Source: Christiangramia sediminis (lineage in GTDB: Bacteria; Bacteroidota; Bacteroidia; Flavobacteriales; Flavobacteriaceae). From it: a DNA stretch of 64,000 bases. The position numbers and the translations under genes are program-made. The notes below the pieces were generated by a model. That model was given only the letters and a program-made list of their open reading frames with translations, searched no databases and was not told the origin of the DNA. Location of the stretch: positions 682,001 to 746,000 of the forward strand of contig NZ_JAJBZG010000001.1 in the NCBI RefSeq assembly GCF_020552705.1. The letters are read 5' to 3'. Shown here one piece after another: positions 3,195 to 53,260 of the stretch; position 1 is the first letter of the stretch; the number at the start of each line of letters is the position of its first letter.

Positions 3195-3205
3195 ACTAAA
3201 AAATT

Positions 3206-16409: not shown

Positions 16410-16411
16410 TA

Positions 16412-17269: not shown

Positions 17270-17281
17270 GATTGAAGTGTG

Positions 17282-18812: not shown

Positions 18813-19648
18813 TAGGCGGTAAAGAGTTTAAAGGTGAATGATGTGGCACGGGTATAGAGTTTGAATTTCAGAAATACGATAAAGGCTATAGACCCGGCTT
18901 CTACAATGATTTTTATAATTCCATTATCGGTTGATGATCCTAGTAAGTTCGACCAGAAATTGATGTTGATTTCCGCATAAAGCTCATTTACAAATATGTT
19001 TACCAGGAAAAAGGCAGGAACGAGCATATAAACCGCGGCATACATCCTGAAAAAATTATAGGCCATACTTCGGAATTTCTCAAAAACGGCCAGGCTGATA
19101 ACTAAAGGGAAAAAAGCCTGCATGATGCCAAGTAGAAAATAGCGTTCCGCCAGAAACAACGGATAAATAAAAAGATCTAAAACCCATAAAAACAATCCGA
19201 TTATAAATGAGATCACTTTGACCGGGTAAAGCGGAGTTACCAGAGCTTCATATAATAAAGCCATCGCCTTTTTTGCAGCTTCTATAGCACCTACATCCTG
19301 TTCGATATCAATATCCTGTAGCTGAAGTGGTATAAGCGCAGGTGCTGTATCGCGATAATTAGATTCAATTGCCACCAAAATACCGTCGAAGACACCCAGC
19401 ACCTGCGTTGAAAATATGACCAGTAAAACGATTACAAAATTTTTAGCGAGTTCTCCAGGGCTCAATCCCCAGGTATACCCATCCCTGTCTGCAATTCCTT
19501 CATTGTATTTTTTTAAAATATTTACCAGGAAAAACATCACCCCGAGACTTTTCATCCCGGCTATGGTGTATTGCGAAAAATCACTGCTTTTGATCGTCTG
19601 AAAAACAGCATCCACATATTCCAGCCCTATTCCTAAAAAAACTCCCAT
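18812..19648 (-). CDS. traJ: Conjugative transfer membrane protein TraJ (VirB6-like)
   Basis: 278 residues with about six hydrophobic segments (near 28-45, 80-100, 140-185, 205-225, 250-270). The C-terminal pattern matches the Bacteroidota TraJ family, the polytopic inner-membrane part of the type IV channel. It is shorter than the usual 330 residues. It lies 6 nt after the traI-like gene and is coupled to traK. Confidence 0.82.
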   Translation of the reverse strand: MGVFLGIGLEYVDAVFQTIKSSDFSQYTIAGMKSLGVMFFLVNILKKYNEGIADRDGYTWGLSPGELAKNFVIVLLVIFSTQVLGVFDGILVAIESNYRDTAPALIPLQLQDIDIEQDVGAIEAAKKAMALLYEALVTPLYPVKVISFIIGLFLWVLDLFIYPLFLAERYFLLGIMQAFFPLVISLAVFEKFRSMAYNFFRMYAAVYMLVPAFFLVNIFVNELYAEININFWSNLLGSSTDNGIIKIIVEAGSIAFIVFLKFKLYTRATSFTFKLFTA

Positions 19649-19654
19649 AGCCTT

Positions 19655-20236
19655 TTAATAGTCAGTTTCCCTGTTGTTGATTTTATCCTGCATTTCCCGA
19701 AAGGAAATGATATCGCGATAGCGCTGGGTCTTCTGGTTGATCTCGGCCACCATTTCTTTAGAATTCATTTCCTTTTCTTTAAGGATGGCCGCTCTTTCAG
19801 CATCGGTCATTTTTAAATAATCGCTGGAGAGTATCTGGTCTATAAAATCCAGGTCTTCCAATGAGTTTTCAATAATGGAATTAAAGGAATCTGAAATACG
19901 GTTCACTTCCTCCGGTTTGATATACGGTGAATTCAAAATCTCCCTGAGATCATCCCGAACTATATCAAAAAGCCGTTGATTATTCTCTGCAATCTCCTGG
20001 ACCGCTTTCAACTGTTTTACAACACTATTTACCTTCTCCAGATTCTCCTTTTGTTGCTTCAGGAAATTGACAGTTTTCAGTAACTGTGAGGTTTGTTTGG
20101 CCGATTCTATAAGCGATTTTGCAAGGCTTATAAAATTGGTGTTGTCATAAACAGGCATTCCCTGGCTCGCAGCCCGCGCGGGCATTATTAAAGCAATTAT
20201 TATTGCCAGCATTGCAATTTTAGTTTGATGATTCAT
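19655..20236 (-). CDS. TraI-like transfer protein (DUF4141, VirB5-like)
   Basis: 193 residues with a signal peptide (cleavage after ARAASQ). The mature protein is almost wholly helical and coiled-coil (about 45-190), with QTSQLLKTVNFLKQQKENLEKV typical of the DUF4141 family that sits between traG and traJ in Bacteroidota conjugative transposons. It is probably a minor pilus or periplasmic component, like VirB5. It lies 4 nt after traG. Confidence 0.78.
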   Translation of the reverse strand: MNHQTKIAMLAIIIALIMPARAASQGMPVYDNTNFISLAKSLIESAKQTSQLLKTVNFLKQQKENLEKVNSVVKQLKAVQEIAENNQRLFDIVRDDLREILNSPYIKPEEVNRISDSFNSIIENSLEDLDFIDQILSSDYLKMTDAERAAILKEKEMNSKEMVAEINQKTQRYRDIISFREMQDKINNRETDY

Positions 20237-20240
20237 AGTT

Positions 20241-22643
20241 TTAGTTTTTTGATGTGAATTCAGTTATTGCTTTTTCCATATTAGAATGTTTTTCATAAAG
20301 CCTCATGATCTCTTCATTCTCCCATCCATCTGTCAGATAGGCTGCATATGCTTCTTTCGGTACTTCCAGGCGGAAAATATTGCTCTCCTTACCGATTTTT
20401 ATAAATATTTCAGTGTAGATCCTGGGGCCGACAAAGTTGTTTTTAATAGATTTCAGCTGATTTAAATCATGCATGGAAAGGTTCAGACGCTTTTTCAACT
20501 CGTCATATCCCTTTTCATTTTGGAGGCTATAAATGACCTGTGTGTTCTCCAAAATACTTGCTGAAGTGGAATTATTGGGAAGCTGATTGATGGATTGAAG
20601 TATGATCCCTATTGCCCCATTCTGTTTACGGATAGCCTGGTAATAAAATTCCACGCTTTCCAGGACATTTTCGAATTTTAGTTGTTTAGCAAATTCATCA
20701 AAAAGGATAATTCCCTTTTCAGCACGGTTTCTCCAAATTGTCCTTTGTATAGCAGATTTAATTAATTTCAGCATTACAGAAAGGATCTCCTTGTTATCCT
20801 TGACTTCATCCAATTCAAAGACGATAAGTCTTTTATCTTCAATTTTATAGGTTAGATCTAATCCTTCTTTAAACAGGAAACTATAAATTCCATTTCCAAC
20901 ATACTCAGACATGATGTGGAGGAAGTCGGTTATATTGAAATAATCCGGATGAACTTTTAATTGAACATGTAGATCATTTTGATTCTCTTCTATAAAGCGA
21001 TAAAAACTGCCTAATGAATGTGGGATAGGAACATTCTGATAATAATGGAGTAAGATCTTTTTAGTGGAAACAGATTGCGCCTTAGTTACTTTCAAACCGG
21101 AAGCGAACAGTTCAAAAAGGAAATCTGCCAGATCTTCCAGACGCTGAGGAGTCAGATCTTTCAGATCATTTATATAAAAGGGATTGATACCTAAATTTGT
21201 TCCCTTTTTATAGCGTAGAATAGCATAACTGCCAGGGTATAATTTGGCAAATTTGGCATAAGAGCCTCCAAGATCAATGATCACCAGACGTACCCCGCTT
21301 TCAAAATACTGACGGAGAATATTATTGGCCAGAAAGGATTTGCCTTCTCCCGTAGGGGCAAAAATTGCAAAATTTCTCGCCTTGATCCGCTTTTTTTTCG
21401 CATCCCATACATCCTTAAAAACCGGGATATTATATTCCCTGTCATTAAAAATAATTCCGGTTGAATCTGATTTATAATTTGTATTATTTATTAGCATACA
21501 CAAGGCATGCTTTAAATCGGTGACATATAAATCTTCATTTGAAAAATTGGAGGAAAAGCAGAAATAGCTGTTCAGGAAATAGTTCTTACGTTCTTCACCA
21601 CCCGGATAATACGGTATGATATCCAGTTCTTTAAATTCAGACTTTATCCTGGAAGTTATCCTCTGCAACTTGCTGGCATCATCGGTCCAATAAATGATAT
21701 TCAAATGCCCCCGGATAATCCTGGAACTATCATCATTATTTATCTGATCCTGTATATGCTGAATTTTCTGAAGAACCACTTTATTCTGTGATCCGAAATT
21801 GGAACTTTTGCTGAGCTCTTCTATTTTTTTGTCCAGCAGCTTTCTCCATTTTTGTTTATCGTCCAGATAAATGATCTGGTTTACAATATGGTTTTCATTT
21901 AAGGTCAGGCCTAAGCCGTCAATAAAGCCCTGGTGAAAAATGAAATCATCCGAGGTGAAATGCTCGTTTCTTTTGCTGCTTTGAACACTTTCCCCGAAAC
22001 ACAATTCACTGTTTATGGATAATAAATCGAAATAATTATCGCCAATATGGATGCCTGATTTATCAAGCAATATATCTGTGTCACAAGCTTCATTGAAACC
22101 ATTGAAATAGGATTCACTAAAGCTTTTGATTTTATCTGCGTTAAGCGGAACTAAACTGATTTTACGGCTATTATTGATGTATGAAACCGAATCTGAAACC
22201 GTACTTACAAATTCCTGGATATTCTCCTCTAGTGTCTCAGGAATCGCTTTTAAAACATTTCTGAAAGGATTTTTATATTTCGCATTGTTCAAAGTTTTGT
22301 TTTTTGTCAGTACGAAAAACAAATAGCTTTGGTGATCTATATACTCCCGCCCTTTAAAATGATCGTGTGTAGCCTTTTCCAAAAAAGTTTTATCAGGCAG
22401 CTCTTCTGAAGAATACTTCTGTTTCAAATAAACATCCTGTTTGTGAATAACACAGGATGCAGGTAGTGACTTAAACGCTTGAAAAAAAGTACTGTGCAGT
22501 TCATCAAAATCCTTTTCTGATAATGAATAGATTTCTGGAAGCATAACTTGGTAGCAAAGAATCAGATTCCCATTACTGGCAAAAACCAAATTCTCCTGAA
22601 TATCTGAGATCGGCGAATAGGATGCGAGGTTAATTTTCTTCAT
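20241..22643 (-). CDS. traG: Conjugation ATPase TraG (VirB4-like)
   Basis: 800 residues. Walker A APTGEGKS lies at about 428-436 and Walker B IILFDEFAK near 645. The VirB4 N-terminal domain is at 1-350. It energises pilus assembly and substrate transfer at the inner membrane. The gene overlaps traF by 14 nt. No lesions are visible and the length matches Bacteroidota TraG proteins. Confidence 0.93.
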   Translation of the reverse strand: MKKINLASYSPISDIQENLVFASNGNLILCYQVMLPEIYSLSEKDFDELHSTFFQAFKSLPASCVIHKQDVYLKQKYSSEELPDKTFLEKATHDHFKGREYIDHQSYLFFVLTKNKTLNNAKYKNPFRNVLKAIPETLEENIQEFVSTVSDSVSYINNSRKISLVPLNADKIKSFSESYFNGFNEACDTDILLDKSGIHIGDNYFDLLSINSELCFGESVQSSKRNEHFTSDDFIFHQGFIDGLGLTLNENHIVNQIIYLDDKQKWRKLLDKKIEELSKSSNFGSQNKVVLQKIQHIQDQINNDDSSRIIRGHLNIIYWTDDASKLQRITSRIKSEFKELDIIPYYPGGEERKNYFLNSYFCFSSNFSNEDLYVTDLKHALCMLINNTNYKSDSTGIIFNDREYNIPVFKDVWDAKKKRIKARNFAIFAPTGEGKSFLANNILRQYFESGVRLVIIDLGGSYAKFAKLYPGSYAILRYKKGTNLGINPFYINDLKDLTPQRLEDLADFLFELFASGLKVTKAQSVSTKKILLHYYQNVPIPHSLGSFYRFIEENQNDLHVQLKVHPDYFNITDFLHIMSEYVGNGIYSFLFKEGLDLTYKIEDKRLIVFELDEVKDNKEILSVMLKLIKSAIQRTIWRNRAEKGIILFDEFAKQLKFENVLESVEFYYQAIRKQNGAIGIILQSINQLPNNSTSASILENTQVIYSLQNEKGYDELKKRLNLSMHDLNQLKSIKNNFVGPRIYTEIFIKIGKESNIFRLEVPKEAYAAYLTDGWENEEIMRLYEKHSNMEKAITEFTSKN

Positions 22644-28310: not shown

Positions 28311-29438
28311 TTATACATCTATCTCCACCCAAATCGCAGGATGCTCACTGGCAGCCTGATTTTTTATTTGCATACTGGGATAAATAGACCACATAGGCTG
28401 ATTTTCAGGCCATACTCCCCTCCTATTTAATCCACATTTTATCACTTTGGTAAAAAGTTCTGGGGACAGTAATAAATAATCCTTTTGTTTAATATTCACT
28501 CCTTTCTGGTAAGCGCCCAGGCTAAAATAGCCAGCGTCTTTCCCTTTATCATAGTCCACTTTAAAGGAATGGTGTCTGGTAACATCTCTTAAATTGGTTT
28601 CCTGCAGAAGGGGTATTATAGAATTACTAAAACATGCGGCATTGAGGGTACCAACTAGGGCTATATAATTTTTGCCTTCCTCAAGTAAATTCATGTATAT
28701 CTCTGCAGCTCGTTCAGCCTGTTTTCTTCTATAAATTTCTGAAAGATCATTAGCAATCCCGGTTTCCTGTAAATGAGCGGCAAGAATGAAAATTGTATTT
28801 CCTGCTTTGGTCCTGATATCATATTCTAACAAGTCTTTATTAAAAATGTTTCTTCCTGAGATATCCTGGTCAAAAATATGACTTCTCACAGACCTAATTT
28901 CAAACCCTTTCCTGGTCAAAATCCCAATTTCCCGACCTCTCTTATCATTTCCCTGCACCACAAAAGAATCCTTAAATGGAGTACAGTTAAATTTAGGCAG
29001 TAAAATCGTATTAAATTCCTCCAAGGAAGCCCGATCTTCAATTTCCTGCAGAATGAGGATATCCGGATTTATATCTGCAATTACCCTCGCTTTGTTTTCA
29101 ATTGCTAAAGGCTCTATGGGAACATTTTGCAAGGCTATCCACCCATTCCAGTCGGTAAGTTCCCCTGCTTTTAATTCTTTTGAATAATTCATTCCTTTAA
29201 GAAAAAGAAAACCCGATTTTCTTTTAACAACAGCATAGGGTAATTGCAGTGAATTATCTATTCCTAACATACATGAGAGTTCTCTTAGACGTAGGTTATC
29301 CTTATCCGTTCTTTTGATTTTCGCCATTAATTGATCTATCTCTATAGTCCATTCTGCTGAGCAATCATCAAAAGGTTTATCCAATAAACTTCTATCTCTA
29401 TGAAATAAATTCTGAATATTAAAAGTTGCTATTTTCAT
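28311..29438 (-). CDS. Endonuclease/exonuclease/phosphatase (EEP) family protein
   Basis: 375 residues. EEP-fold motifs: MKIATFNIQNLF at the start (Asn), ILILQEIEDRASLEEFN (Glu), FILAAHLQETG (His) and IALVGTLNAA where a Gly-Asp-Phe-Asn motif is usual. ASEHPAIWVEID supplies the terminal His. The aspartate of the GDFN motif appears replaced by Thr, so activity may be altered. Last gene of the HTH-wHTH-ATPase-nuclease run; it overlaps the ATPase gene by 4 nt. Substrate unknown, possibly DNA. Confidence 0.78.
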   Translation of the reverse strand: MKIATFNIQNLFHRDRSLLDKPFDDCSAEWTIEIDQLMAKIKRTDKDNLRLRELSCMLGIDNSLQLPYAVVKRKSGFLFLKGMNYSKELKAGELTDWNGWIALQNVPIEPLAIENKARVIADINPDILILQEIEDRASLEEFNTILLPKFNCTPFKDSFVVQGNDKRGREIGILTRKGFEIRSVRSHIFDQDISGRNIFNKDLLEYDIRTKAGNTIFILAAHLQETGIANDLSEIYRRKQAERAAEIYMNLLEEGKNYIALVGTLNAACFSNSIIPLLQETNLRDVTRHHSFKVDYDKGKDAGYFSLGAYQKGVNIKQKDYLLLSPELFTKVIKCGLNRRGVWPENQPMWSIYPSMQIKNQAASEHPAIWVEIDV

Positions 29439-30091
29439 TTTCTTTTGTCTTTTGTTTTAAAATCAAAAGCGATTAGATTGAATAAGATTTTCATTCTGCT
29501 TCTTACCCTTGTGCCATACTTATTTTCAAATTCCTTAGCAATTAGATTAGTAGTTCCATGAGTTTTTAAATTTGTTTCTAGAAACAGTTCATAACGAGAC
29601 ACCATAATTTCACCTATTACGTTGCAATCCCTCCCGTAGTATCTTCCTACTGGCTCCATACCCATATCATCAAAGCAGAAATAGCTATCATCCCCATAAT
29701 CCTCAATAGTTTTATAACCAAGATGGTTAAAGGCAAATACTACATTTCTACAGGGCATCACCACATAACTTCTTTGATGGGGCACCATGAATCGCATAAG
29801 TTTCATCAGGCTTGTTTTTCCACATCCTACAGGGCCTGTCAGCAAAATTCCTTTATCAGGATCTATTCCTAATTTTTCGCAGTTTGCTTGATCTTTTATA
29901 AAATAGTTAGATAGCTTAAACAGAACCTCTTTATCCTCTTCATATATTTTAAAATGCTGCCCAAAAAGCATTTTACCTTTGGCTTCGAGATAGATAAGGA
30001 TTTTTGGAAAATCGTAGATTATCTTCTTACCATCGAACCTTCCAAGGGAATATTCAATTCCATCTTCCAAAATACTAGAGGGGTTCGGCAT
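29435..30091 (-). CDS. DnaC-like P-loop ATPase
   Basis: 218 residues. Walker A GPVGCGKTS is at about 90-98 and Walker B YFCFDDMG near 140. The size and single AAA-type core resemble DnaC/IstB helicase loaders. It overlaps the winged-helix gene upstream by 17 nt, suggesting a replication-initiation pair. It probably helps load a helicase on the ICE, or acts in its maintenance; this is inference from fold and context. Confidence 0.75.
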   Translation of the reverse strand: MPNPSSILEDGIEYSLGRFDGKKIIYDFPKILIYLEAKGKMLFGQHFKIYEEDKEVLFKLSNYFIKDQANCEKLGIDPDKGILLTGPVGCGKTSLMKLMRFMVPHQRSYVVMPCRNVVFAFNHLGYKTIEDYGDDSYFCFDDMGMEPVGRYYGRDCNVIGEIMVSRYELFLETNLKTHGTTNLIAKEFENKYGTRVRSRMKILFNLIAFDFKTKDKRK

Positions 30092-30722
30092 AATTCTTAT
30101 ATTTAGTTGTTTTTAGGTTGTCACTATTTTGAAATACTGATGACTGACTTTGGAATTCGTTTACTTTCAACATCCAATTTTCAGCAGTTGCGTGCCAATT
30201 AGTAATCGTTATTTTCCCTCTTACTAACCATCCAATTGAAGTGTAGTGATTGTAGAATTTTCGCGCCTCCAGTTCAGGCCAATTTTTATTTCTAAAAAAA
30301 ATTAAAACTTCATTTTCATTTTGCGGGAGCTCTAGTTTATTAATGTTTTTATTTTGTTTATTTAAGTTTACTAAAGGAGTTAATGCTTGTTTTGAGGTTG
30401 ATTCAAGCTTGTTTACTACTTGTTTAGAGCTTGCATCAAAAATGAACATCCTAACTCTACTCCCCTTATATGGATTATGAGAAGGCAGATATTGAATATA
30501 TTTTTGATCGTGTAATTTTCTCAGACATCGATGGTAAGTTGGATTGGAACCAATTTTGGCCATTTCCATGATTTCATCTCTATGGATATAGAATAATTCT
30601 TTAAAACGGTGAATATTCCAGGATTGAAATAAAGCCATATATACACTGATATGAGTGGCATTAAGGCTGGAATCCTTGGAGAATCTCTGAAATATCGCAT
30701 TCAAGTGTTTTATATAATTCAT
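30075..30722 (-). CDS. Winged-helix protein, possible replication initiator
   Basis: 215 residues. The N-terminal 100 (SSLNATHISVYMALFQSWN, FYIHRDEIMEMAKIGSNPTYHRCLRKLHDQKYIQYLPS) form a winged-helix DNA-binding domain typical of DnaD/Rep-like proteins. The C-terminal part (VLIFFRNKNWPELEARKFYNHYTSIGW) resembles a DnaD-type tail. It sits between the excisionase-like gene (3 nt gap) and a DnaC-like ATPase (17-nt overlap). A regulator is the alternative. Confidence 0.65.
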   Translation of the reverse strand: MNYIKHLNAIFQRFSKDSSLNATHISVYMALFQSWNIHRFKELFYIHRDEIMEMAKIGSNPTYHRCLRKLHDQKYIQYLPSHNPYKGSRVRMFIFDASSKQVVNKLESTSKQALTPLVNLNKQNKNINKLELPQNENEVLIFFRNKNWPELEARKFYNHYTSIGWLVRGKITITNWHATAENWMLKVNEFQSQSSVFQNSDNLKTTKYKNYAEPL

Positions 30723-30725
30723 GGC

Positions 30726-31001
30726 TTATTCATTTTGGATTAGATTATCTGCCAATATTTTTTGAATAATAGCTGAATCATAGTAAATAAGCCCTCCAAT
30801 CTTGCTATACGGTAGTATACCCTTAGTTCTAAAACCATTCAGAGTTCCGGCGCTAATCTTAAGCATTTCTATGACTTCGGTGGATTTGAGCCATCTTTTA
30901 GAAATATTTCCAGATTCCTTTTCGAGTAGTTTCTGAATTTCTTCCAGGAGCTCCATTTTAAACTCCATTAAATCATCTGTAGTAATAATTGATGTTGGCA
31001 T
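30726..31001 (-). CDS. Excisionase-like HTH protein (HTH_17)
   Basis: 91 residues from ATG 31001 (a longer frame to 31028 would start inside an upstream hairpin). An amphipathic helix at 12-35 precedes a MerR-type winged HTH: RWLKSTEVIEMLKISAGTLNGFRTKGILPYSKIGGLIYYD. Such proteins are Xis2c/Xis2d-like factors of CTnDOT-type elements. It is directly downstream of rteC, the known activator of the xis operon in CTnDOT, which supports a role in excision. Confidence 0.75.
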   Translation of the reverse strand: MPTSIITTDDLMEFKMELLEEIQKLLEKESGNISKRWLKSTEVIEMLKISAGTLNGFRTKGILPYSKIGGLIYYDSAIIQKILADNLIQNE

Positions 31002-31019
31002 AATAATTTTGTTTTTAAA

Positions 31020-31060
31020 CAATCCCACCGCAGATTATAAAGTTTAAAGCAGTGGGATTG
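31020..31060 (-). promoter_or_regulatory. 5' leader hairpin of the excisionase-like operon
   Basis: CAATCCCACCGC (31020-31031) and GCAGTGGGATTG (31049-31060) form a 12-bp stem with one wobble pair. It ends 18 nt before the ATG at 31001. It may be a leader-RNA structure controlling translation, or a protein-binding dyad. Confidence 0.5.
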
Positions 31061-31251: not shown

Positions 31252-32073
31252 TCATGCATCGAGTTCTTCCATATATTCAAGCATGGAATTTCTCATCTTG
31301 TCGATAAATTTTAAAGGTTCAGAGCGACCCCTAAGCCTTGAAAAGGTATGAGGGTAGTCTCCCAAATCTAAGCCTGTTAAAGTCTCAAATATTACCATAA
31401 GTTCTTTCAGGGTGCTATTCCCATTATTTACACTGCCACTTAAATGTAGGGCATAGATCAGTTCTGTTAGTGCAACCTTAGAAGAAGTCCAGTTTATTTT
31501 TACCGGTTCTTCAAAAGCTATAGAAGAAGTTTGTTTATCCTGGGATAATTTGTTCAAATATTCCAGCAAGAAATTCCGGGCATTCAGCTCACTTAATAGC
31601 AAATCGTGGGAGGAGCTAAATAAAGGATCTCTTTCATATTGATTATAATTTGCAATATGATCTTTACTGAAATATTTTCGGGTAAAATAGATCTCATCGA
31701 GGTATTCTTGATCCAGTGCGATATACTGAAGAAAATTTTTATGCGCAGAAAGGAAACTATTTATTTTTTGAATTTTTTTTCGGATAAATTTCGACCGTAA
31801 AGATTCGCCTATAGATGAAATTTCCAATTCAATAGATAGCAAGTTTTCGTAATAAATCTGATATGTTAAAGGAATCGTTTTCTGTTCTCTAAAAAACTGA
31901 ATTTCTGAAGGAGTATCCGGGAAGTCTTTTAAATAAATCTCTTTCCGATAAATTTCTAATACTTTACGACAGTAGTTAATTACTTCGAAGTATGCAGTAT
32001 TCTTATTTAGGAATGTCTGCTCAATTTCGTGGATCTTATTTTTTAGCTCATACTCGGTAATAAGAAAATCCAT
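31252..32073 (-). CDS. rteC: RteC-family regulator
   Basis: 273 residues matching the RteC domain over almost the full length: a helical N-terminal half (EQTFLNKNTAYFEVINYCRKVLEIYR) and a C-terminal winged-helix-like half (WTSSKVALTELIYALHLSGSVNNG, then LKELMVIFETLTGLDLGDYPHTFSRLRGR). RteC activates excision genes of tetracycline-inducible conjugative transposons. Here no rteA/rteB or tetQ is visible. It sits upstream of the excisionase-like gene in the same direction. Confidence 0.88.
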   Translation of the reverse strand: MDFLITEYELKNKIHEIEQTFLNKNTAYFEVINYCRKVLEIYRKEIYLKDFPDTPSEIQFFREQKTIPLTYQIYYENLLSIELEISSIGESLRSKFIRKKIQKINSFLSAHKNFLQYIALDQEYLDEIYFTRKYFSKDHIANYNQYERDPLFSSSHDLLLSELNARNFLLEYLNKLSQDKQTSSIAFEEPVKINWTSSKVALTELIYALHLSGSVNNGNSTLKELMVIFETLTGLDLGDYPHTFSRLRGRSEPLKFIDKMRNSMLEYMEELDA

Positions 32074-32225
32074 TAGATTAATATTTAAAGAATACTACCT
32101 TAAATATCCTGCAATTCTTCCACTTTATATAATATTAGAAATCTGCCTTTATAAATGAATGCGTTGCATTTATAAACAATCGGAAAGAGAAAGAAGAAAA
32201 AATATTGTTAACCTGGACGAAATAA

Positions 32226-34394
32226 CTAATGCTTCATATTGGATTTGGCGAAGCTGAAGATTTTACTATACAGTTGGACAGATTCATCATAATCACCAAC
32301 GGATTCATGCCCATTTTGATAATTGATATCCATTAAAACAGGATTGTTTGTATGATTGCTATTTTGCAGTTTAGCAATATATTTACCACTATCCCATAAT
32401 GGAATGCGGTCATCGTTATAGCTTGGCATGACAAGAACTGCCGGATAAAGCATTTGAGACCGTATGTTTAAGTATGGATCCATTTTTAGGAGACCTGTAA
32501 ATTCTGTACTGTCTTTAACCGTTCCGTACTCAAGGTAACTTGTACTGCTTGCGGTACTGGAAGATTCTAAACCAAGAGGATTCAAACGTGGAACTTCTGC
32601 TATAAAGGAAGAAAAGAGATCGGGACGTTCATTTACAGCCATTCCGGCAGTGATCCCTCCTGCACTGCTGGTATAAAGAGAAATTAATCCTGCTTCTGTC
32701 AAATTTAAATTTATTAGAGCTTCGGTACAGGCGATAAGGTCTTTCCAGGAATTATATTTAAGATTCTTCATTCCCTGTTCGTGCCATTCCTTCCCTTTTT
32801 CACCACCACCTCTAACATGAGGAAAAGCCAGAACACCCCCCTGTTCAGCCCAATCTAAAAATATAGGAGAGAAAAAGGGACTCATACTTTCCCCGTAGGC
32901 CCCATAGACATAGATAAATACCTCATTTGCTGAATTTCTCTCCATACCTTGCTTATAAACAAGCGATAAGGGAACTTCTACCCCATCATGGGAGGTAATC
33001 ATTATTTGCTCAGTTATAATGTTTTCAAACTCTGGATAAGTCAATAGAGGTGAAAGAACTTCTCTTGAAAAACTTCCATCTTTGTGTATTAAATAACGGG
33101 TATAATCGGTAGTCCAACCATCCAATCCCACTCCAATGTTATTGTGCATTATAGATCCCCCAAAAAAGGTAGCATAACCGGGATCAAAAGGAGGTTGTAA
33201 TTGTTGTATCTCATTTGAAGAGTTGAGGACGTATAAAGAAACATTCGAGCCATATAAGGACCGTGCATAATAGATATTGCTCTTAGTTACCTCAAATTTA
33301 ATTATAGGGTTATCAGTACTTCCTTCTGCTAAAATAATCGGGTTATTGAAATCAGGATTTTTGATACTTACTTTTCCTAATAAATTTCCTTTTAAATTTC
33401 CTTGGCGAAAAATAAAATCTCCACCACGAACCTCACCCTGATCATAAAATATCGCGTCTTCCTTTTTAAAAAATGGTTTCCAATCTGGTTTTCCTTGTAA
33501 AACATCTGAAATTGTAGCTATGTAGCTGTCATAATAATCATCAGAACTGGCTACATAACCAATTATATGTTTATCCAGGCTCGATCCTATTTTTACTTTA
33601 GGGTAAAAATCTTCAGAAATTAGTAAGTCTTCATTTGTCTGAAAAATCGGTATCCTGCTTTCGGGATTCTTACCTAATTTATGAATAACAGAAAAGGAGT
33701 TCTTCTTATATTCGGGTTGGGTTTTATCTACTTCAGGAAAATATAAATAGATAAATCCGGAACTGTCCGGCAACCATTCTATTCCTCCAAAATCTGGATT
33801 GATTTTAGTAATTACGTCTTCTAAAACCTTTTTCTTTTCAAGATCATAGATTAAAACCTTACTGGAAAAACCACCATTTTCATTAAACCCTATTGCTATC
33901 TTTTTGCCGTCAAAGGAGGGTTTGAGATAGGTAATTGATAAATTCTCTCCGCCGTACTGAAAAGGATTATACAATTCTTTTTCATTGTCAGCCAAGTTCT
34001 CCCTAAAAAACAACTTTTCATATCCCAGACTATCATCATATTTTAAATAAAAATAATTTCCTGCTTCATTAATCCTAATCATACTCACGGAAGATTCAGC
34101 ATTATTTTGCAATTTTCTAAGCCTTTCCAGGTAATTCTTCATTATATCATTGGCAGCAAAATATGATTCAGCTAGCGAATCCTGGGCTTTGAACCATTCC
34201 TTCACTACGCTATCTTCAAGCTTATTTAAATTTGAATACTCGTCTATAATCTTAATTCCATAATGTATTTCGATAGCAGGTTCTTTAGAGATTTTGGGAT
34301 AAACCAATTGATTGTCTTTTCCTTCCTGGGCAAAAGAAACCGAAAGGAATAACCAGAAAAAATAGAATTGAAAAAGTCTGATAATGTTTTTCAT
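32226..34394 (-). CDS. Secreted prolyl oligopeptidase (S9 family)
   Basis: 722 residues. A signal peptide (cleavage after SVSFAQ) sends it to the periplasm. The N-terminal part (about 60-450) is a seven-bladed beta-propeller, and the C-terminal alpha/beta-hydrolase carries the triad: Ser near 576 (YTSSAGGITAG), Asp near 658 (YNDDRIP) and His near 695 (NGHESVGD). The nucleophile motif reads SSAGG instead of the usual GGSNGG. The family cleaves short peptides after proline. It lies 66 bp behind a 42-residue peptide gene whose core has two prolines, separated by a terminator-like hairpin. It may mature, degrade or detoxify the peptide. Confidence 0.88.
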   Translation of the reverse strand: MKNIIRLFQFYFFWLFLSVSFAQEGKDNQLVYPKISKEPAIEIHYGIKIIDEYSNLNKLEDSVVKEWFKAQDSLAESYFAANDIMKNYLERLRKLQNNAESSVSMIRINEAGNYFYLKYDDSLGYEKLFFRENLADNEKELYNPFQYGGENLSITYLKPSFDGKKIAIGFNENGGFSSKVLIYDLEKKKVLEDVITKINPDFGGIEWLPDSSGFIYLYFPEVDKTQPEYKKNSFSVIHKLGKNPESRIPIFQTNEDLLISEDFYPKVKIGSSLDKHIIGYVASSDDYYDSYIATISDVLQGKPDWKPFFKKEDAIFYDQGEVRGGDFIFRQGNLKGNLLGKVSIKNPDFNNPIILAEGSTDNPIIKFEVTKSNIYYARSLYGSNVSLYVLNSSNEIQQLQPPFDPGYATFFGGSIMHNNIGVGLDGWTTDYTRYLIHKDGSFSREVLSPLLTYPEFENIITEQIMITSHDGVEVPLSLVYKQGMERNSANEVFIYVYGAYGESMSPFFSPIFLDWAEQGGVLAFPHVRGGGEKGKEWHEQGMKNLKYNSWKDLIACTEALINLNLTEAGLISLYTSSAGGITAGMAVNERPDLFSSFIAEVPRLNPLGLESSSTASSTSYLEYGTVKDSTEFTGLLKMDPYLNIRSQMLYPAVLVMPSYNDDRIPLWDSGKYIAKLQNSNHTNNPVLMDINYQNGHESVGDYDESVQLYSKIFSFAKSNMKH

Positions 34395-34407
34395 ATTTTC
34401 GTTCTTT

Positions 34408-34447
34408 AAAAAATTCCCGAAACAATATTTTGATCCGGGAATTTTTT
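34408..34447 (-). terminator. Hairpin between peptide gene and peptidase gene
   Basis: A 12-bp perfect stem AAAAAATTCCCG (34408-34419) / CGGGAATTTTTT (34436-34447), 13 nt after the peptide stop. The stem sequence gives a T tract on either strand. It would let most transcripts end after the peptide gene, with some reading through to the peptidase. Confidence 0.7.
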
Positions 34448-34460
34448 TACGAATTAATAT

Positions 34461-34589
34461 TTAATCTCGTTTACCAACCTTAGGAACTTTGATCTTATCT
34501 CTGTCAATTGGGCCCGCTACTCCACCTCCTTTAATTTGTTTTAAATTTTTAAGAGCTCTTCCTTTAAAATCTTTTAGTTCTTTCTTCAT
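34461..34589 (-). CDS. Double-glycine leader peptide (secreted peptide precursor)
   Basis: 42 residues from ATG 34589. The leader (MKKELKDFKGRALKNLKQIK, residues 1-20) is basic and amphipathic and ends in a GGG motif (21-23), the cleavage signal for C39 peptidase exporters. The mature part, residues 23-42, is a short basic core with prolines at positions 28 and 36 and no Cys, Ser or Thr, so lanthipeptide or disulfide rings are excluded. A longer in-frame extension to 34658 is unlikely. The exporter gene of the matching type lies 3-5 kb upstream on the same strand with a shared promoter box. A bacteriocin or a signal peptide are both possible. Confidence 0.75.
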   Translation of the reverse strand: MKKELKDFKGRALKNLKQIKGGGVAGPIDRDKIKVPKVGKRD

Positions 34590-34623
34590 GATTATAATAT
34601 TAAAATGGTTTATAATAAATTTC

Positions 34624-34687
34624 AGTACTAAATAATCACATTTGGGTACAAACTGCAAAAAGCTTAGCCGTCCATTTATAAATGACG
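34624..34687 (-). promoter_or_regulatory. Peptide gene promoter with shared 23-bp box
   Basis: Read on the minus strand, a box beginning CGTCATTTATAAATGGAC and ending GGCTA (34687-34665) is followed after 32 nt by TTTAGTACT (34632-34624), 35 nt before the ATG. The exporter gene has the same box (20 of 23 bases) and the same 32-nt gap to TTTAGTGCT. The central ATTTATAAAT is a palindrome. Confidence 0.7.
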
Positions 34688-34693
34688 TGTTGT

Positions 34694-35641
34694 TTAGCGC
34701 GATTTAAGTTCATTTAAAAACTTAGATGGATATACCCCTGTTTTCTTATAAAAGGCTTTCGAAAATGATTCCCCTGTTTTGAAACCAAAAACTTCCGCTA
34801 AACCTTGATAATTATATTTTAATAAATCAGGATTTTTACTCAACTGATTTATTGCCGCTTTGATTTTTAAATCCTTGATATAAGTAGGAAAGCTTATCTT
34901 CTTATAATGATTAATTACAGTGGATAAATAGGTAGTGTTGGTTCCTATTTGTTGTGCCAGTCCATACATATCTAAATCTTTGCTCATAAAGCCCTCTGAT
35001 GTTTCAAATACAGCAAGTTTTTCTAAAATATCCTTTCTGATTTCCTCTGGAACAGAAGAGGGGTGCTCAGTAATGGTCTTAGTTTTTTCCTCCCCCATTT
35101 CCGATCCTTGCATAAGTAGTTTTAATCTGGTATTCATTTTTCTGGATCGCATATAGAAATATAATCCCATAAGCATGGCAAGACCGGCTAGAATTGCAAT
35201 CAATGCCACGTATATATTTTTTGCTTGAAGCTGATTTTCAGCTTTAAGTTTTTGCCTTTTTAAATCCGGGATATCATATGCTACTACAGCTTGATTTGCT
35301 ATGTTTTCATGCTCCGAGGACAAAACACTATCATAATAAATTAGTTTTTCTATATAATCTATCTGCTCCTTCTCATCATCTTCTAATATTGAACTAATTA
35401 TTAATTGCTGATAAACATCCTTAACTTCATCAAAAGGATCCTCTGTTGAGGAAACGATGGAATCAATGGTTTTAAAATACGTAGTGGCAGCCTTTTCATT
35501 TCCGAAATGTTTTTCAATTTTGCCCAAATAATAAAGCTTGATCGCCTTACTGGTACCCTCAAAATCATTAATATATTTTAGTAATGTATCCTTAGCCTTT
35601 TTGAAATCCCTTTTATAAAAGTTTATCTGGGCATCCACCAA
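34694..35641 (-). CDS. TPR-TM-AraC regulator, C-terminal part (frameshifted gene)
   Basis: 315 residues from a GTG that is probably not a true start. It carries TPR-like helices (QINFYKRDFKKAKDTLLKYI), a transmembrane segment (about 127-147, IYVALIAILAGLAMLMGLYFY) and a C-terminal AraC-type HTH (GLAQQIGTNTTYLSTVINHY and the YQGLAEVFGFKTGESFSKAF helix pair). The frame continues upstream through RLEHKKEDFKDFVLVDAQ, so it is the rear of the gene at 35674-36393. One added T in GATTAGAG near 35675-35682 would join the two. In the intact form it would sense a periplasmic ligand and bind DNA in the cytoplasm. Confidence 0.75.
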   Translation of the reverse strand: MVDAQINFYKRDFKKAKDTLLKYINDFEGTSKAIKLYYLGKIEKHFGNEKAATTYFKTIDSIVSSTEDPFDEVKDVYQQLIISSILEDDEKEQIDYIEKLIYYDSVLSSEHENIANQAVVAYDIPDLKRQKLKAENQLQAKNIYVALIAILAGLAMLMGLYFYMRSRKMNTRLKLLMQGSEMGEEKTKTITEHPSSVPEEIRKDILEKLAVFETSEGFMSKDLDMYGLAQQIGTNTTYLSTVINHYKKISFPTYIKDLKIKAAINQLSKNPDLLKYNYQGLAEVFGFKTGESFSKAFYKKTGVYPSKFLNELKSR

Positions 35642-35673
35642 AACAAAATCCTTAAAATCTTCTTTTTTGTGCT

Positions 35674-36393
35674 CTAATCTCGCAACTCAATCCCCTTCTG
35701 AACATAATATTTTGAGGTATCCAATTGAGACAATCTCAAGTAGGTAAGTGATAGATTATAAAACAGTGTGGCATAATCATCATAAAAACCTTCAGTTGAA
35801 CTTGATTTCTGTTTTAAAAGATTAAGGGATCGATTATATAAATCGGCGGCGGCGTAATGCTGACCATTAATATTCCTTATGGCAGCAATGGCCAAAGAAA
35901 TTTCACGTTGATCTTCTATATTATTCTTTTCTAAAGCCAGATCATGGGCCTTTAAAAAATTATCTAATGCAAGTTGGAATTTACCCTGATCATAAAATAT
36001 ATTTGCCTTAAGAATATAGCCAAGAGTTGGATAATTCGGATGTACGCTGTTTTCAGTAATCTGGATCATAGAATCTGAATAAACTAAAGCAACGTGCGGT
36101 TTTTCATTCAAAATTCTGTAGTAATAAGCCCTTGCTACTTCAATGGGATCATTCTCCTTTTTTGCTTTTTTTAGGTGGACTTTTACAATCTCTTTAAGTT
36201 CGTCAATTCTAGAATCTGCCATAGCGACTGATTCAAGTTCATGCAATTCTGAAAAGGTTGAGTTAATCGAGTAATTAGAGGTAGTCTGTTCTGAATTATC
36301 CTGGGAAAACAATGCTTGGGAAATACATAAAGTCAAAACCACGAACATCAGCACGCGGCACAGGAAAAACTTTATTTCAGAATACAAAATCAT
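35674..36393 (-). CDS. TPR sensor part of the regulator (frameshifted gene)
   Basis: 239 residues: signal peptide or anchor (about 8-30, cleavage after ALFSQ), then tandem TPR helices (about 60-235, e.g. GYILKANIFYDQGKFQLALDNFLKAHDLAL and LFYNLSLTYLRLSQLDTSKYYVQKGIELRD). It ends abruptly at TAG after ELRD, where the reading frame of the next gene takes over with LEHKKEDF. It represents the N-terminal, periplasmic sensor half of a TPR-TM-AraC protein of about 560 residues. Its start lies 10 nt after the adaptor gene. Confidence 0.72.
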   Translation of the reverse strand: MILYSEIKFFLCRVLMFVVLTLCISQALFSQDNSEQTTSNYSINSTFSELHELESVAMADSRIDELKEIVKVHLKKAKKENDPIEVARAYYYRILNEKPHVALVYSDSMIQITENSVHPNYPTLGYILKANIFYDQGKFQLALDNFLKAHDLALEKNNIEDQREISLAIAAIRNINGQHYAAADLYNRSLNLLKQKSSSTEGFYDDYATLFYNLSLTYLRLSQLDTSKYYVQKGIELRD

Positions 36394-36403
36394 CTTTAAC
36401 CAT

Positions 36404-37636
36404 TTAAAAATCCCCGTTTGACCATAAATGTCGGAATTGATAAAAAATCCGTTCTATCAGCGTAACTTCCTTTAGTAAAATTTCTGCTGTTCCATTTAAT
36501 TCCTGATAAAATTCTAATTCTTTTCCATAAGAGGTTTTCAGGTCCTCAACAACTAAGTAAACAACATAGCCAGGATTATTCCCTCCTTTTGGCACTTCCG
36601 AAATAGATCCTACCTTCGCTCTTAGCATTCCCCATTCATGATATGGATAATTTTCCAGCTTTAAATTCACTTTTTGTCCCTTCTTCAACTTTCCTGCATT
36701 CCGAATGGGTATTATACACTTCCCTATCAGATCCTGTTGAATTTGGGGAACAACACTATATATTAATTCCCCTTTTTCTACATTCTGATATTCTCCCCAA
36801 ACTTCGAAATAAGATAATCGTCCATCTATTGGGCTTTTCAAAAGGTAGGTATCTTCCCATTTTTGAATAGCATTGATTAAATTCTGTTGAGATAGCAAAA
36901 GATCAATCTCCAGATTAAGCTTAGTTCTCAAAGAACTATTTGTTGTGAGCTGTAATTTGGTGTGTATGCCTTTATTCTCCAGAATTAACTGATTATATTG
37001 TTGATTTATAAAATGAAATTGACGCTGCTCCATCAGGAAATCCTTTTCTATATTTTCCAGATCAACCTGGGAAATTACTCCCTTACTGTACAATTCCTGA
37101 AACCTCTTATAATTGGCTTTCGATACTTCCAGATTTCTATTGGCAAGAAATAACTCCGCTTTTTTACTATCAATGGAATGAAACTGATTTAATAATTCCT
37201 GTTTTATTTGTTGATCATAAACAATTTCGTCATTAATGGAAGCGTCAAGTAGCAATTGATGATAATTACTTAAAAAAGCATTATAATATAATTGTAGATC
37301 ATTGCCCAAAATTAATTGTGAAGGATAAATCTCACTTAAAACTTTAAGGGAATGGGTATTGAAAAGGGTATCTAATTTAGCTTTTAACTGTAATACATTC
37401 TCGGTATTTGAATCATTTTCCAGTTCGCCTAAAATATCCCCTTTTAGAACTAGATCACCAGGCTGAAAATTCATGGCTAAGATTTTACCTTCAGTTTTTG
37501 CTTTGATATGAACCGGAGGATTTTTCGAGGTGACAATTACCTCTCCTTGAATAACTTCATTAAATGGAAAATTGGAAGCAAATATTAGTAATATTACAAA
37601 GAAACCGAATGTCAACTTAGTGCCATTCCGTAACAT
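36404..37636 (-). CDS. HlyD-type periplasmic adaptor of peptide exporter
   Basis: 410 residues. A membrane anchor at about 9-24 is followed by a biotinyl-lipoyl half (VKAKTEGKILAMNFQPGDLVLKGDILGELEN), a long coiled-coil hairpin (about 75-260) and the second lipoyl half with a beta-barrel (SPIDGRLSYFEVWGEYQNVEKGELIYSVVP). It links the ABC exporter to an outer-membrane channel; no TolC gene is next to it. The frame stays open upstream of ATG 37636 into the exporter gene (REPSW and further) without ATG, GTG or TTG, so the true start may be non-standard or the ATG given. Confidence 0.85.
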   Translation of the reverse strand: MLRNGTKLTFGFFVILLIFASNFPFNEVIQGEVIVTSKNPPVHIKAKTEGKILAMNFQPGDLVLKGDILGELENDSNTENVLQLKAKLDTLFNTHSLKVLSEIYPSQLILGNDLQLYYNAFLSNYHQLLLDASINDEIVYDQQIKQELLNQFHSIDSKKAELFLANRNLEVSKANYKRFQELYSKGVISQVDLENIEKDFLMEQRQFHFINQQYNQLILENKGIHTKLQLTTNSSLRTKLNLEIDLLLSQQNLINAIQKWEDTYLLKSPIDGRLSYFEVWGEYQNVEKGELIYSVVPQIQQDLIGKCIIPIRNAGKLKKGQKVNLKLENYPYHEWGMLRAKVGSISEVPKGGNNPGYVVYLVVEDLKTSYGKELEFYQELNGTAEILLKEVTLIERIFYQFRHLWSNGDF

Positions 37637-37704
37637 CCAACTCGGTTCACGTTGAAGATTATTATCATCTTTATTTTTGTTGAAGTTTTTGATAATCGCT
37701 GATT

Positions 37705-39882
37705 TTAAAGTTGATTTCTTATTAATTTGTAGTAAACACCTTTCCTAGAAAGCAACTCTAGATGATTTCCCTTTTCCACTATATTTCCTTTATCCATCAC
37801 CAATATTTGATCAGCATTTTTCACCGTGGAAAGCCTATGGGCTACAATAATTACTGTTTTGTTCAAATAAAAATGGCTTAAGTTTTCCGTAATCACTTTT
37901 TCATTTTCAGCATCTAAAGAACTTGTAGCCTCATCGAAAAATAAATATTTAGGATTTTTGTATATCGCCCTTGCAATTAGAAGCCTTTGTTTCTCACCTC
38001 CGCTTAAAAGCTGTCCCTGTTCACCAATCCTGGTCTGATATCCAAGTGGGAGTGAATTAATTAAGCTGGTCAAATTGGTCTTTTCAACCGATTCTATTAA
38101 CCGATTTTGGTTTAAAGGTTCATCAGATTTTGATTCTGTGATATTTCGTTCTATCGTATCATTGAACAAAATTCCATCCTGTAAAACTACCCCACACATC
38201 CTTCTCCAATTGTCAACTTCAATATGCTCGAAATTTTCATTTCCAATACTTATCCTGCCGTCACTAGGCTTATATAATTTCAATAATATTTTCAGTAAAC
38301 TTGTCTTACCAGACCCACTAGGTCCGACAATGGCAGTAACTTTCCCGTATGCAAACACTGTAGAAACATTCTTAAGAACAGCGTTTGATCCCTGTTCCCC
38401 ATAATTGAATGATATATTTTCGAGTTTTATATCGCCTCCCAATTCGACCACATTGCTATCATCCTGATAAACTTCAGATTTTTGATTATGAATTTCAGCC
38501 AATCTCTTTAAAGAAAGTTTTGCTTTCTGGTAGCCCACTAAAAAATCTATGGTATTAGAAACTGGAATATAGAGGCTGCCTACGATGAATTGAATGGCCA
38601 ACATGGTCCCCAATGATATTTCACCTGATATGACTGCTTTTGCGGACCAAAAAACAATCAAGATGCCTGTAACTTCATTAATAAATTTCCCACCCTTAAT
38701 TTGACTATGATCAACTTTTAAGATGGTTGATTGCAGTCCAAAGAGCCTAGACTGATTCATCTTCCACTCCGATTTTCTTCTTTCTTCTGAATTGTTAAGT
38801 TTGATTTCCTTCACCGCCATAATAATTTGAAGAAAATGGGATTGCTCTTTTCTATTTAAATCAAATTGCTGGTGATCCAGAATTTCCTTTCTTTTCATAA
38901 ATAAAAGGGACCAACCCAAAAACAAAGCTGTTCCAGTCAGGAAAATCAGAAGAATCGTACTATTAAAAATTCCTAAAACAAAAGCAAAAACTATTATACT
39001 AAGCAAGTCAAAAAATATAGTTAGGGATTGACCGCTCAGGAATTCCTCCACTCTCTGATGATCGTAAATCCTCTGCATAAAATCGCCAGTGGTTTTTGAA
39101 TCAAAAAAAGTAATTGGAAGCTTCAGGAGTTTATCCAAAAAATCTGATACCATCGCTATGGTTACTTTTGTGCTTATGTGTAATAAGAGCCAATCCCGAA
39201 TGACCTCAGTAACGGAACGGGTTAGAAATAAAAATAGTTGTGCTATAACGATCAGGTATATAAAATCAAGATTTTCATAATTGATTCCGTAATCCACAAT
39301 ACTTTGGGTTAGAAAAGGAAGAATCAACTGAATTAACATCGCAGTAAATAATCCCAAAGTAATCTGTCCTATAAATTTTTTATATGGACTAAGATATTCG
39401 AATAAGAATCCTATTCCTTCCGGTTTAGTTTCTTCATTTTCGTTATTCAGAAAATTCTCCTTAGGTTGGACAAGCAGTAAAACACCCTCATTTTCGATTG
39501 CACCAGACCATCGAACCTGAAATTCATTATGAGAATATTTTATTCTCCCTATGGCTGGATCGGAAACAAAGACATTCTTATTATCTGTTTTATATACCAC
39601 CAGAAAATGATTATGCTCCCAATGGGCTATAGCTGGAAGTGGGATGTCATCGATCAGTTCCTGAAAGTTTGCTTTGATACCCACTGAATCTAAACCAATT
39701 TTTTCTAATGCCCTGGAGAGACCCTCGAAGGACACACCTCCTTTTTGTTGGGATGAAATTTCACGTAAAAAATTTAAATTGAAATTTTTGCCATAATATT
39801 CCGTAATAATTTTTAGGCAGGTCGGCCCGCAATCCATTTGATCAAGCTGATGGTAAACCGGAAAATTAACTGTTCCAAACAT
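37705..39882 (-). CDS. C39 peptidase-containing ABC exporter (PCAT)
   Basis: 725 residues from ATG 39882; a TTG three codons earlier is also possible. The N-terminal C39 protease has Cys18 (DQMDCGPTC), His near 93 (HWEHNHFLVVYK) and Asp near 109 (SDPAIG). Six membrane helices (about 165-430) and the ATPase domain follow, with Walker A GPSGSGKTS near 520, signature LSGGEKQR near 625 and Walker B LFFDEATSS. It cuts precursor leaders after GG while exporting the core peptide. The precursor candidate is the 42-residue gene at 34461-34589. Confidence 0.92.
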   Translation of the reverse strand: MFGTVNFPVYHQLDQMDCGPTCLKIITEYYGKNFNLNFLREISSQQKGGVSFEGLSRALEKIGLDSVGIKANFQELIDDIPLPAIAHWEHNHFLVVYKTDNKNVFVSDPAIGRIKYSHNEFQVRWSGAIENEGVLLLVQPKENFLNNENEETKPEGIGFLFEYLSPYKKFIGQITLGLFTAMLIQLILPFLTQSIVDYGINYENLDFIYLIVIAQLFLFLTRSVTEVIRDWLLLHISTKVTIAMVSDFLDKLLKLPITFFDSKTTGDFMQRIYDHQRVEEFLSGQSLTIFFDLLSIIVFAFVLGIFNSTILLIFLTGTALFLGWSLLFMKRKEILDHQQFDLNRKEQSHFLQIIMAVKEIKLNNSEERRKSEWKMNQSRLFGLQSTILKVDHSQIKGGKFINEVTGILIVFWSAKAVISGEISLGTMLAIQFIVGSLYIPVSNTIDFLVGYQKAKLSLKRLAEIHNQKSEVYQDDSNVVELGGDIKLENISFNYGEQGSNAVLKNVSTVFAYGKVTAIVGPSGSGKTSLLKILLKLYKPSDGRISIGNENFEHIEVDNWRRMCGVVLQDGILFNDTIERNITESKSDEPLNQNRLIESVEKTNLTSLINSLPLGYQTRIGEQGQLLSGGEKQRLLIARAIYKNPKYLFFDEATSSLDAENEKVITENLSHFYLNKTVIIVAHRLSTVKNADQILVMDKGNIVEKGNHLELLSRKGVYYKLIRNQL

Positions 39883-39902
39883 GATACCCAATTAATAATC
39901 AT

Positions 39903-39966
39903 AGCACTAAATTAATCTAGAATAAAAATGAAAGAAAGCGAAATAGCAGTCTATTTATAAATAACG
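39903..39966 (-). promoter_or_regulatory. Exporter promoter with shared 23-bp box
   Basis: On the minus strand a box beginning CGTTATTTATAAATAGAC and ending TGCTA (39966-39944) is followed after 32 nt by TTTAGTGCT (39911-39903). The ATG is 21 nt further on. Box, gap and TTTAGTRCT element match the peptide gene promoter. Confidence 0.7.
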
Positions 39967-43822: not shown

Positions 43823-43840
43823 CTAATTTCTATTTCTTTA

Positions 43841-45337: not shown

Positions 45338-45352
45338 GTCTAATATTGTTTT

Positions 45353-45634: not shown

Positions 45635-45649
45635 ATTATTTAATTTTAA

Positions 45650-46834: not shown

Positions 46835-46905
46835 AAATTTTGATTTTAGTTTAATCTATACGATAAGGTCAGCCAGCTATTTTAAATAGTGGCCTGACTA
46901 GTTGA

Positions 46906-47340: not shown

Positions 47341-47384
47341 TGATTACAAAAGTAATAATTTATCACAGAGATTTGAGGAAAAAT

Positions 47385-47424: not shown

Positions 47425-47448
47425 TCAACTAATTAACTTACTGACTAT

Positions 47449-52426: not shown

Positions 52427-52430
52427 ATCC

Positions 52431-53251: not shown

Positions 53252-53260
53252 CTCATAAAA

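Follow-up and report, generated by a model that had tools for sequence, protein, structure and literature searches.

A 64,000-nt stretch of Christiangramia sediminis DNA (contig NZ_JAJBZG010000001.1, positions 682,001 to 746,000 of the forward strand; hereafter the window) raises the question of what a short double-glycine (GG) peptide does when its gene lies between those for a tetratricopeptide repeat (TPR) regulator and an S9 peptidase, next to the conjugation regulator gene rteC. We think it probable that the cassette senses the peptide and, in response, controls the integrative conjugative element (ICE) on which it resides. Its features, all on the minus strand, are as follows (ORF, open reading frame; TM, transmembrane; HTH, helix-turn-helix):

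37705..39891, minus: C39-peptidase ABC exporter (Pfam PF03412 Peptidase_C39, E 1.2e-35; PF00664; PF00005)
36404..37636, minus: HlyD-type periplasmic adaptor (PF13437 HlyD_3, 2.4e-11; TIGR01843, 77.7 bits, under its cut-off)
35674..36393, minus: TPR-TM-AraC regulator, N-terminal piece (TPR_12, 8.1e-08; hydrophobic at 5-30, predicted signal/TM helix; frame broken at its end)
34694..35641, minus: TPR-TM-AraC regulator, C-terminal piece (HTH_18, 8.8e-10; hydrophobic at 138-165, predicted TM segment)
34461..34589, minus: GG precursor peptide, 42 aa, leader-core MKKELKDFKGRALKNLKQIKGGG-VAGPIDRDKIKVPKVGKRD, with GPIDRDK in the core; relatives aligned
32226..34394, minus: S9-family serine peptidase with a signal-like N-terminus (PF00326 Peptidase_S9, E 1e-39; hydrophobic at 4-22)

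These positions and the Pfam domain content agree with an earlier reading of the window from its letters and translations (the sequence-only reading), which had described five genes on one strand with these identities and a split regulator. Two regulator frames are indeed found. In four relatives the regulator is one uninterrupted ORF of 565-573 aa, so the split is local to the C. sediminis copy; it may reflect either biology or a mistake in the assembly. Across the 3.25-Mb genome, Peptidase_C39 has no match besides the exporter (E <= 0.001). The peptide has the attributes of a GG-leader substrate, being a short precursor whose leader ends in GG (here GGG) and whose cassette includes a C39 exporter, and the 42-aa sequence has no match in Pfam or NCBIfam.

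We searched 249 genomes of the family Flavobacteriaceae for relatives (G numbers denote genomes and L numbers fetched loci). The 42-aa query matched in 13 of the 249 (E up to 1). The best four matches besides the window (G225, G110, G144 and G217; E 4.9e-6 to 0.07) are GG-peptide ORFs adjoining the same partners, and the remaining eight sit inside frames of at least 324 aa. In total, nine other loci, in Cerina, Yeosuana, Confluentibacter, Ulvibacterium, two Leeuwenhoekiella, Flagellimonas, G597 and G080, carry, directly after the same regulator, a 37-46-aa GG peptide with a related, GPIDRDK-like core. The cores are VAGPIDRDKIKVPKVGKRD, QDGPIDRDKVLRKGRRQG, DGPIDRDKIRTSERR, TNGPIDRDKIKIPIRR, DLGPIDKRKLNDKKKR, DDGPIDKRKVKKQNK, FADKGPIRRDKLKRPKHGF, SSVIDRDKVRRPKPGKK and HPPIDRPRRPTGGLRPPFGKKM, where the cut within GGG runs is guessed; those of the ICE circuits are ~15-22 aa long, charged and cysteine-free, and the GPIDRDK-like motif is kept across genera.

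The conserved cassette consists of the TPR-TM-AraC regulator, the GG peptide and the envelope S9 peptidase, usually with the C39 exporter and HlyD adaptor, and its arrangement varies. Cerina litoralis (G225) has the gene order of the window, exporter-adaptor-regulator-peptide-S9-rteC. In Confluentibacter lentus (G110) and Yeosuana marina, regulator-peptide-S9-exporter-adaptor run divergent from rteC, and in Leeuwenhoekiella the exporter pair and the remaining cassette genes are transcribed towards each other. Ulvibacterium (G217) has no exporter nearby but encodes one elsewhere in its genome; for locus L104, none lies within the 20 kb fetched and the same genome has one at another place. Additional circuits occur in Flagellimonas S3867, G597 and G080. 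Exporter relatives mostly stand outside such a cassette, with only 3 of 59 fetched places (L045, L066 and L068) also matching the TPR, HTH and S9 queries. Plasmid records contained no close relative: one search gave no match, and a second gave a single one, with 26% identity across 42% of the query.

An ICE carries the circuit, with rteC, the proposed target, beside it:

31252..32073, minus: rteC, ICE excision/transfer regulator (PF09357, 9.8e-54; the only RteC match in the genome)

Transfer genes, a coupling protein, RteC and integrase matches are all present, as in Bacteroidota tra-type ICEs, and the integrase matches (C2:648611 and C2:759435), which may belong to the element, lie on either side of the window. 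No tRNA was found in the window or in the 4 kb around one integrase. Confluentibacter, Ulvibacterium and G597 have the same ICE backbone around the cassette, and part of it is found in the Yeosuana and Flagellimonas flanks examined; the Cerina contig ends just past rteC and the HTH_17 gene next to it. In these ICEs rteC adjoins the cassette, which lies on varying sides and in both orientations. None of the window's ICE genes was matched in the Leeuwenhoekiella flanking DNA examined.

What would connect the cassette to rteC is a palindrome with the core TTTATAAA, found at the following places in the window:

34666..34683, minus: operator-like site upstream of the peptide gene (TTTATAAA at 34675-34682)
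39945..39962, minus: operator-like site upstream of the exporter gene (TTTATAAA at 39954-39961)
32148..32176, minus: two TTTATAAA sites before rteC, spaced 21 bp apart, an arrangement found nowhere else in the C. sediminis genome

An 18-bp word common to the peptide and exporter upstream regions was spotted by eye and the search pattern was written from both sites, so its two exact matches in the window are by construction. Allowing three mismatches added no further match there, and two or more matches arose in 6 of 100 shuffles. Across loci, the TTTATAAA palindrome lies between the regulator stop and the peptide start in all eight peptide-bearing ICE circuits (window, L045, L202, L066, L106, L104, L120 and L214), overlapping the end of the regulator gene in L045 and L104. 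Within 400 bp upstream of rteC, TTTATAAA is present in 8/9 regulator-bearing loci compared to 4/58 others (Fisher 6e-7), and pairs spaced 20-21 bp apart are present in 5/9 compared to 0/58 (Fisher 1e-5), p-values that overstate the case because related sequences are not independent. The rteC start is misplaced for L226 and L217, which shifts their 400-bp windows, although the two sites of L217 still lie upstream of the ORF; identical RteC proteins (L247 = L246 and L260 = L259) were counted separately. An exporter-upstream site is confined to the window and G597 among those ICE circuits in which a separate upstream region precedes the exporter; in L066 and L106 the exporter closely follows S9.

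The palindrome and the peptide both go with the regulator beyond these ICEs. A palindrome with arms of at least 5 lies within -40 to +150 of the regulator stop for 34 of 58 distinct full-length regulators, compared to 29 of 1228 other ORFs, and a GG-leader ORF lies no more than 600 bp downstream of 35 of 58 regulators, compared to 75 of 1212 control ORFs. The loci behind the 58 regulators entered partly via the exporter or the TPR-AraC gene itself, and both control sets include cassette genes other than the regulator; palindrome-control positives such as L045 and L217 are rteC or regulator sites of circuit loci. L137, counted as peptide-negative, has a GA-type peptide that falls outside the GG rule. 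In Aquimarina and other loci whose examined flanks have no match to the window's RteC, the TTTATAAA core, often with long arms, again follows the regulator gene. Since the palindrome follows the regulator gene even there, the regulator is the likely binder. At L276, a 30-bp perfect palindrome around ATTTATAAAT lies between the TPR-AraC gene and a GG peptide. The Leeuwenhoekiella circuits have no TTTATAAA after the regulator gene; in L068 and L144 another palindrome, around ACTTAAGT, precedes the peptide.

The predicted architecture of the regulator is consistent with sensing in the envelope. An AlphaFold2 model of the Cerina regulator, built from 27 sequences (predicted local distance difference test 90; predicted template modelling score 0.70), has a helix at 2-28, TPR helices to ~330, a long helix at 334-422 that includes the TM segment, and then the HTH. 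Hydropathy of the window's regulator pieces shows a hydrophobic N-terminus and one more hydrophobic segment. The top Foldseek matches in the PDB are LGN TPR domains with bound partners, and further matches include phage Rap with pheromones, RapJ with CSF, pLS20 Rap with Phr* and NprR. A profile search gave TONSOKU as the best match (7e-17); RapF (4.5e-11), NprR (7.4e-5) and other TPR proteins matched too. The S9 peptidase probably sits in the envelope together with the sensor domain, since the S9 N-termini are signal-like and several have a Cys after the hydrophobic run. Its Ser, Asp and His, which from their motifs we take to be the catalytic triad, align in 15/15 loci compared, window included. 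The sequence-only reading was right about the S9 family, but post-proline cleavage is less secure than it stated, because the best NCBIfam match is oligopeptidase B (147 bits against a cut-off of 1313).

In the circuit we propose, the GG precursor would be made in the cytosol, and the C39 exporter would cut it after the GG and, with the HlyD adaptor, deliver the core of ~19 aa to the envelope or across it. Located in that compartment too, the S9 peptidase may trim or destroy the core. The TPR superhelix of the regulator, placed outside the inner membrane by the signal/TM helix, would bind the peptide, and the change this induces would travel along the long helix through the second TM segment to the cytoplasmic AraC-type HTH. 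The HTH would bind the TTTATAAA-core palindrome before the peptide gene and before rteC, and in some elements also before the exporter operon, acting as an activator or a repressor. In this way the amount of peptide would govern how much more of it is made as well as the excision and transfer driven by RteC. Regulation of the peptide gene and rteC by the TPR-AraC protein is likely, and the balance tips towards the peptide being its ligand. The exported GG peptide, periplasmic TPR sensor, envelope peptidase and parallel to the RRNPP regulators that the sequence-only reading had suggested gain support from the conserved gene set, the conserved core, the TPR fold match and the common palindrome; the likely target, an ICE with the site before rteC, had escaped it.

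Several observations weigh against this reading. The regulator lies in two frames in C. sediminis, and because of this break the circuit may be disabled there. The cassette contains no separate gene for an outer-membrane channel. TPR folds bind many things, so TPR similarity alone is no proof of peptide binding, and unrelated TPR proteins (NOT10 and O-GlcNAc transferase) rank among the Foldseek matches. The exporter-upstream TTTATAAA is absent in L045, L120 and L214, and L214 also has no TTTATAAA site before rteC. Tandem TTTATAAA pairs occur at chance frequency, and only their position speaks for function: a pair scan of 16 whole genomes found one place in each of seven, upstream of rteC in G000, G225, G212 and G597 and elsewhere in G085, G121 and G209, while the circuit-carrying G110, G217 and G080 have no pair. 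The existence of a pair is unremarkable because ~0.5 pairs are expected per genome from the TTTATAAA density of the window and a reversed-pattern control gave a similar result, six places in five genomes.

The locus L217 (G212) and the history of rteC also weigh on this side. At L217, an integrase-like ORF, a TPR-AraC gene and rteC lie in a row (6082-10323) with the rteC sites in place, and the exporter, adaptor and S9 gene are absent from the 20 kb; no GG peptide is among the ORFs listed around the regulator, and this may be a receptor without a peptide of its own. The sequence-only reading had held that homologous loci lacking the peptide gene would tell against it, and L217 and many distant TPR-AraC genes are in part such loci. 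In a quick RteC tree of 64 sequences, from which L226 and duplicate RteCs were left out, eight of the nine RteCs from circuit loci group together (SH-aLRT, an approximate likelihood ratio branch test, 84), and L214 stands apart on a long branch whose placement the program called unsure. Because these eight form one clade, the rteC-site counts mostly reflect one origin plus conservation. Mapped on this tree, the circuit requires 2 changes compared to 8.6 for shuffled labels, and the association looks old and maintained rather than repeatedly gained.

The same clade is what an explanation of the cassette as unrelated cargo, near rteC by chance or insertion preference, would draw on, together with the absence of the cassette from 58 of the 60 RteC loci fetched. 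RteC occurs in 86/249 family genomes. The 60 places were taken from a list of well over 100 and are not a random draw: 20 came from the low-scoring end, chosen because circuit RteCs score low, G080 was chosen since its exporter adjoins rteC, and known circuit loci were added separately. A TPR-AraC gene stands beside rteC in 2 of the 60 (G080 and G212). Adjacency to rteC nevertheless persists although order and orientation vary among the ICEs, the circuit's own site lies in the rteC upstream region, L214 falls outside the clade (with the uncertainty given above), and Chryseobacterium L154 also has a TPR-AraC gene next to rteC; we consider unrelated cargo improbable. If instead RteC were the protein that binds the TTTATAAA sites, rteC would govern the cassette, and the co-occurrence of sites and rteC in the ICEs would be expected. 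Aquimarina and other loci have the palindrome after the regulator gene as well, with no RteC match in the flanks examined, as judged with a single divergent RteC query that distant RteCs could escape, and 54 of 58 circuit-free rteC loci have no TTTATAAA before rteC. On these two grounds we rejected RteC as the palindrome binder, which has very little probability left.

The peptide could also be a bacteriocin carried as ICE cargo, with the regulator sensing stress, envelope state or another ligand and switching bacteriocin and ICE jointly. Bacteriocins typically have GG leaders and C39 exporters, as found here, and some TPR-AraC-linked peptides elsewhere are longer, contain cysteines and come in tandem sets. 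Against this, no immunity gene is evident in the cassette, since its strand contains no other gene-length ORF; the ICE cores are short, charged and cysteine-free with a motif conserved across genera; and a signal role would suit both the envelope peptidase and the site that precedes the peptide gene. We regard the bacteriocin explanation as unlikely, if less so than the other two.

How far the proposed pairing of receptor and peptide extends was judged from wider homologues. In a phylum sample of 395 genomes (match threshold E up to 1e-60), TPR-AraC homologues were found in 30, all in Flavobacteriaceae or one other family of the same order. Of 20 stretches behind such homologues (19 of the top 23 places and one further down the list), five have a GG peptide (p 0.007 compared to controls) and five have a palindrome, one with 15-base arms. 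Left out of these 20 were the peptide-positive G317, G423, G354:C26:45868 and G446:C1:1450076, and also G446:C1:2774961. Counting the four places already known to be peptide-positive, 9/24 wider homologues have a GG peptide, a low fraction that weighs against our reading, as does the peptide profile outside the window's family. Profile matches with E < 0.01 occur in 15 genomes; all eight in the window's family adjoin a TPR-AraC gene, two of them (window and G144) being rows of the profile itself, and 0 of the 7 in other families have TPR-AraC within 1.5 kb. The wider TPR-AraC family is thus only partly peptide-linked, and the idea that every member of the broad family has a GG peptide is ruled out by the 35/58 among nearer and 9/24 among wider homologues.

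Most GG peptides in another family of the same order (f5; L168, L169, L171, L175, L179 and L181-L186) have a leader resembling FSSLENKKLKNLQSI-GG. No TPR-AraC lies within 1.5 kb of the f5 peptides, and they look like a different peptide family. In Aquimarina, three or four GG peptides lie in tandem after the TPR-AraC genes (L124, L125, L128, L129 and L141), and an STKT-type motif is common to their C-termini. In Chryseobacterium sp. Leaf180 (L154:10001-12434), rteC begins ~43 bp after a TPR-AraC gene, and no GG peptide was found downstream.

Taking these loci together, we lean, if only slightly, towards a new class of Bacteroidota peptide communication, in which envelope-facing TPR-TM-AraC receptors are paired with GG peptides and often a peptidase. 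It would exist outside ICEs, as in Aquimarina with up to four tandem peptides and in Leeuwenhoekiella, and would have been captured by ICEs with the receptor's operator placed before rteC, making conjugation answer to a peptide sensed in the envelope without import.

In Gram-positive bacteria, peptides are known to control conjugative elements through cytoplasmic TPR receptors. The closest known system is Rap-Phr, exemplified by pLS20 Rap with Phr* (6t46), and pLS20 Rap is itself among the structure matches of the regulator; ICEBs1 RapI-PhrI is another Rap-Phr control of conjugation. Common to both are a secreted peptide, an adjacent TPR receptor gene and transfer control, here proposed, of the carrying element. 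The present receptor differs in being predicted to span the membrane, with the TPR domain outside the cytoplasm and a C-terminal AraC HTH, and the peptide would take a C39/GG export route that needs no import step, in a Gram-negative host. RRNPPA receptors have an N-terminal HTH or effector domain followed by the TPR domain, whereas HTH_18 is C-terminal here (TPR-TM-HTH_18). As in that group, a TPR receptor gene lies next to a propeptide gene. The TPR fold predicted here with high confidence matches Rap and NprR among others. The available text of PMC9765709 describes RRNPPA receptors as cytoplasmic and from Firmicutes; the present receptor is predicted to have two hydrophobic segments, helices in the model, rather than to be cytoplasmic without membrane segments.

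In CTnDOT, according to the portion of PMC1976400 consulted, RteB activates rteC, RteA-RteB-RteC are produced only upon tetracycline exposure, and RteC controls excision and transfer genes. The two systems have in common rteC and the control of excision and transfer in Bacteroidota, and differ in that the site before rteC co-occurs here with a TPR-AraC peptide circuit. The accessible part of PMC10352776 describes Bacteroidales ribosomally synthesized and post-translationally modified peptide clusters (BGC2 and BGC9) with GG precursors, peptidase-containing transporters and TPR-domain genes, and mentions pheromone binding by such TPR domains in other bacteria; in that part, a TPR-AraC fusion, an operator and a link to rteC or an ICE are not described for these clusters. 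A large RRNPP survey, from the section of PMC10075063 at hand, covered complete Firmicutes genomes only. In the literature searched, which held few subscription papers, we found nothing on a TPR-AraC/GG-peptide pairing or on a peptide-controlled Bacteroidota ICE. If our reading is true, a membrane-spanning, differently built solution in Gram-negative Bacteroidota would have converged on the same logic, and a candidate signal, receptor, operator and target gene would be in hand for the trigger of rteC-type ICEs in Flavobacteriaceae. Both the operator and the peptides are of a length that allows direct synthesis and testing.

The rest of the ICE in the window comprises the following:

30726..31028, minus: HTH_17 protein adjoining rteC, conserved ICE backbone (a relative near rteC in 56/60 RteC loci)
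28311..30722, minus: three conserved ICE backbone genes (375, 218 and 215 aa) after HTH_17, conserved in relatives
16041..22643, minus: ICE transfer genes, DUF4138 (TraN-like), TraM, TraG ATPase and neighbours (domain scan from the block's second ORF on; conserved in relatives)
2160..4828, plus: DUF5712 protein and type IV coupling protein of the ICE (conserved in L196 and L198)

Near the transfer genes lies a 1285-aa Eco57I-type restriction-modification protein (8146-12003), and an IS110-family transposase (26154-27209) separates them from the HTH_17 block. Next to the integrase on one side of the window, an ORF at L274:2565-3704 resembles a sensor histidine kinase by eye. Metal/resistance-nodulation-division efflux cargo occupies 40742-59804 and includes a 1477-aa ORF whose single chain combines an AcrB-type pump with an outer membrane efflux domain.

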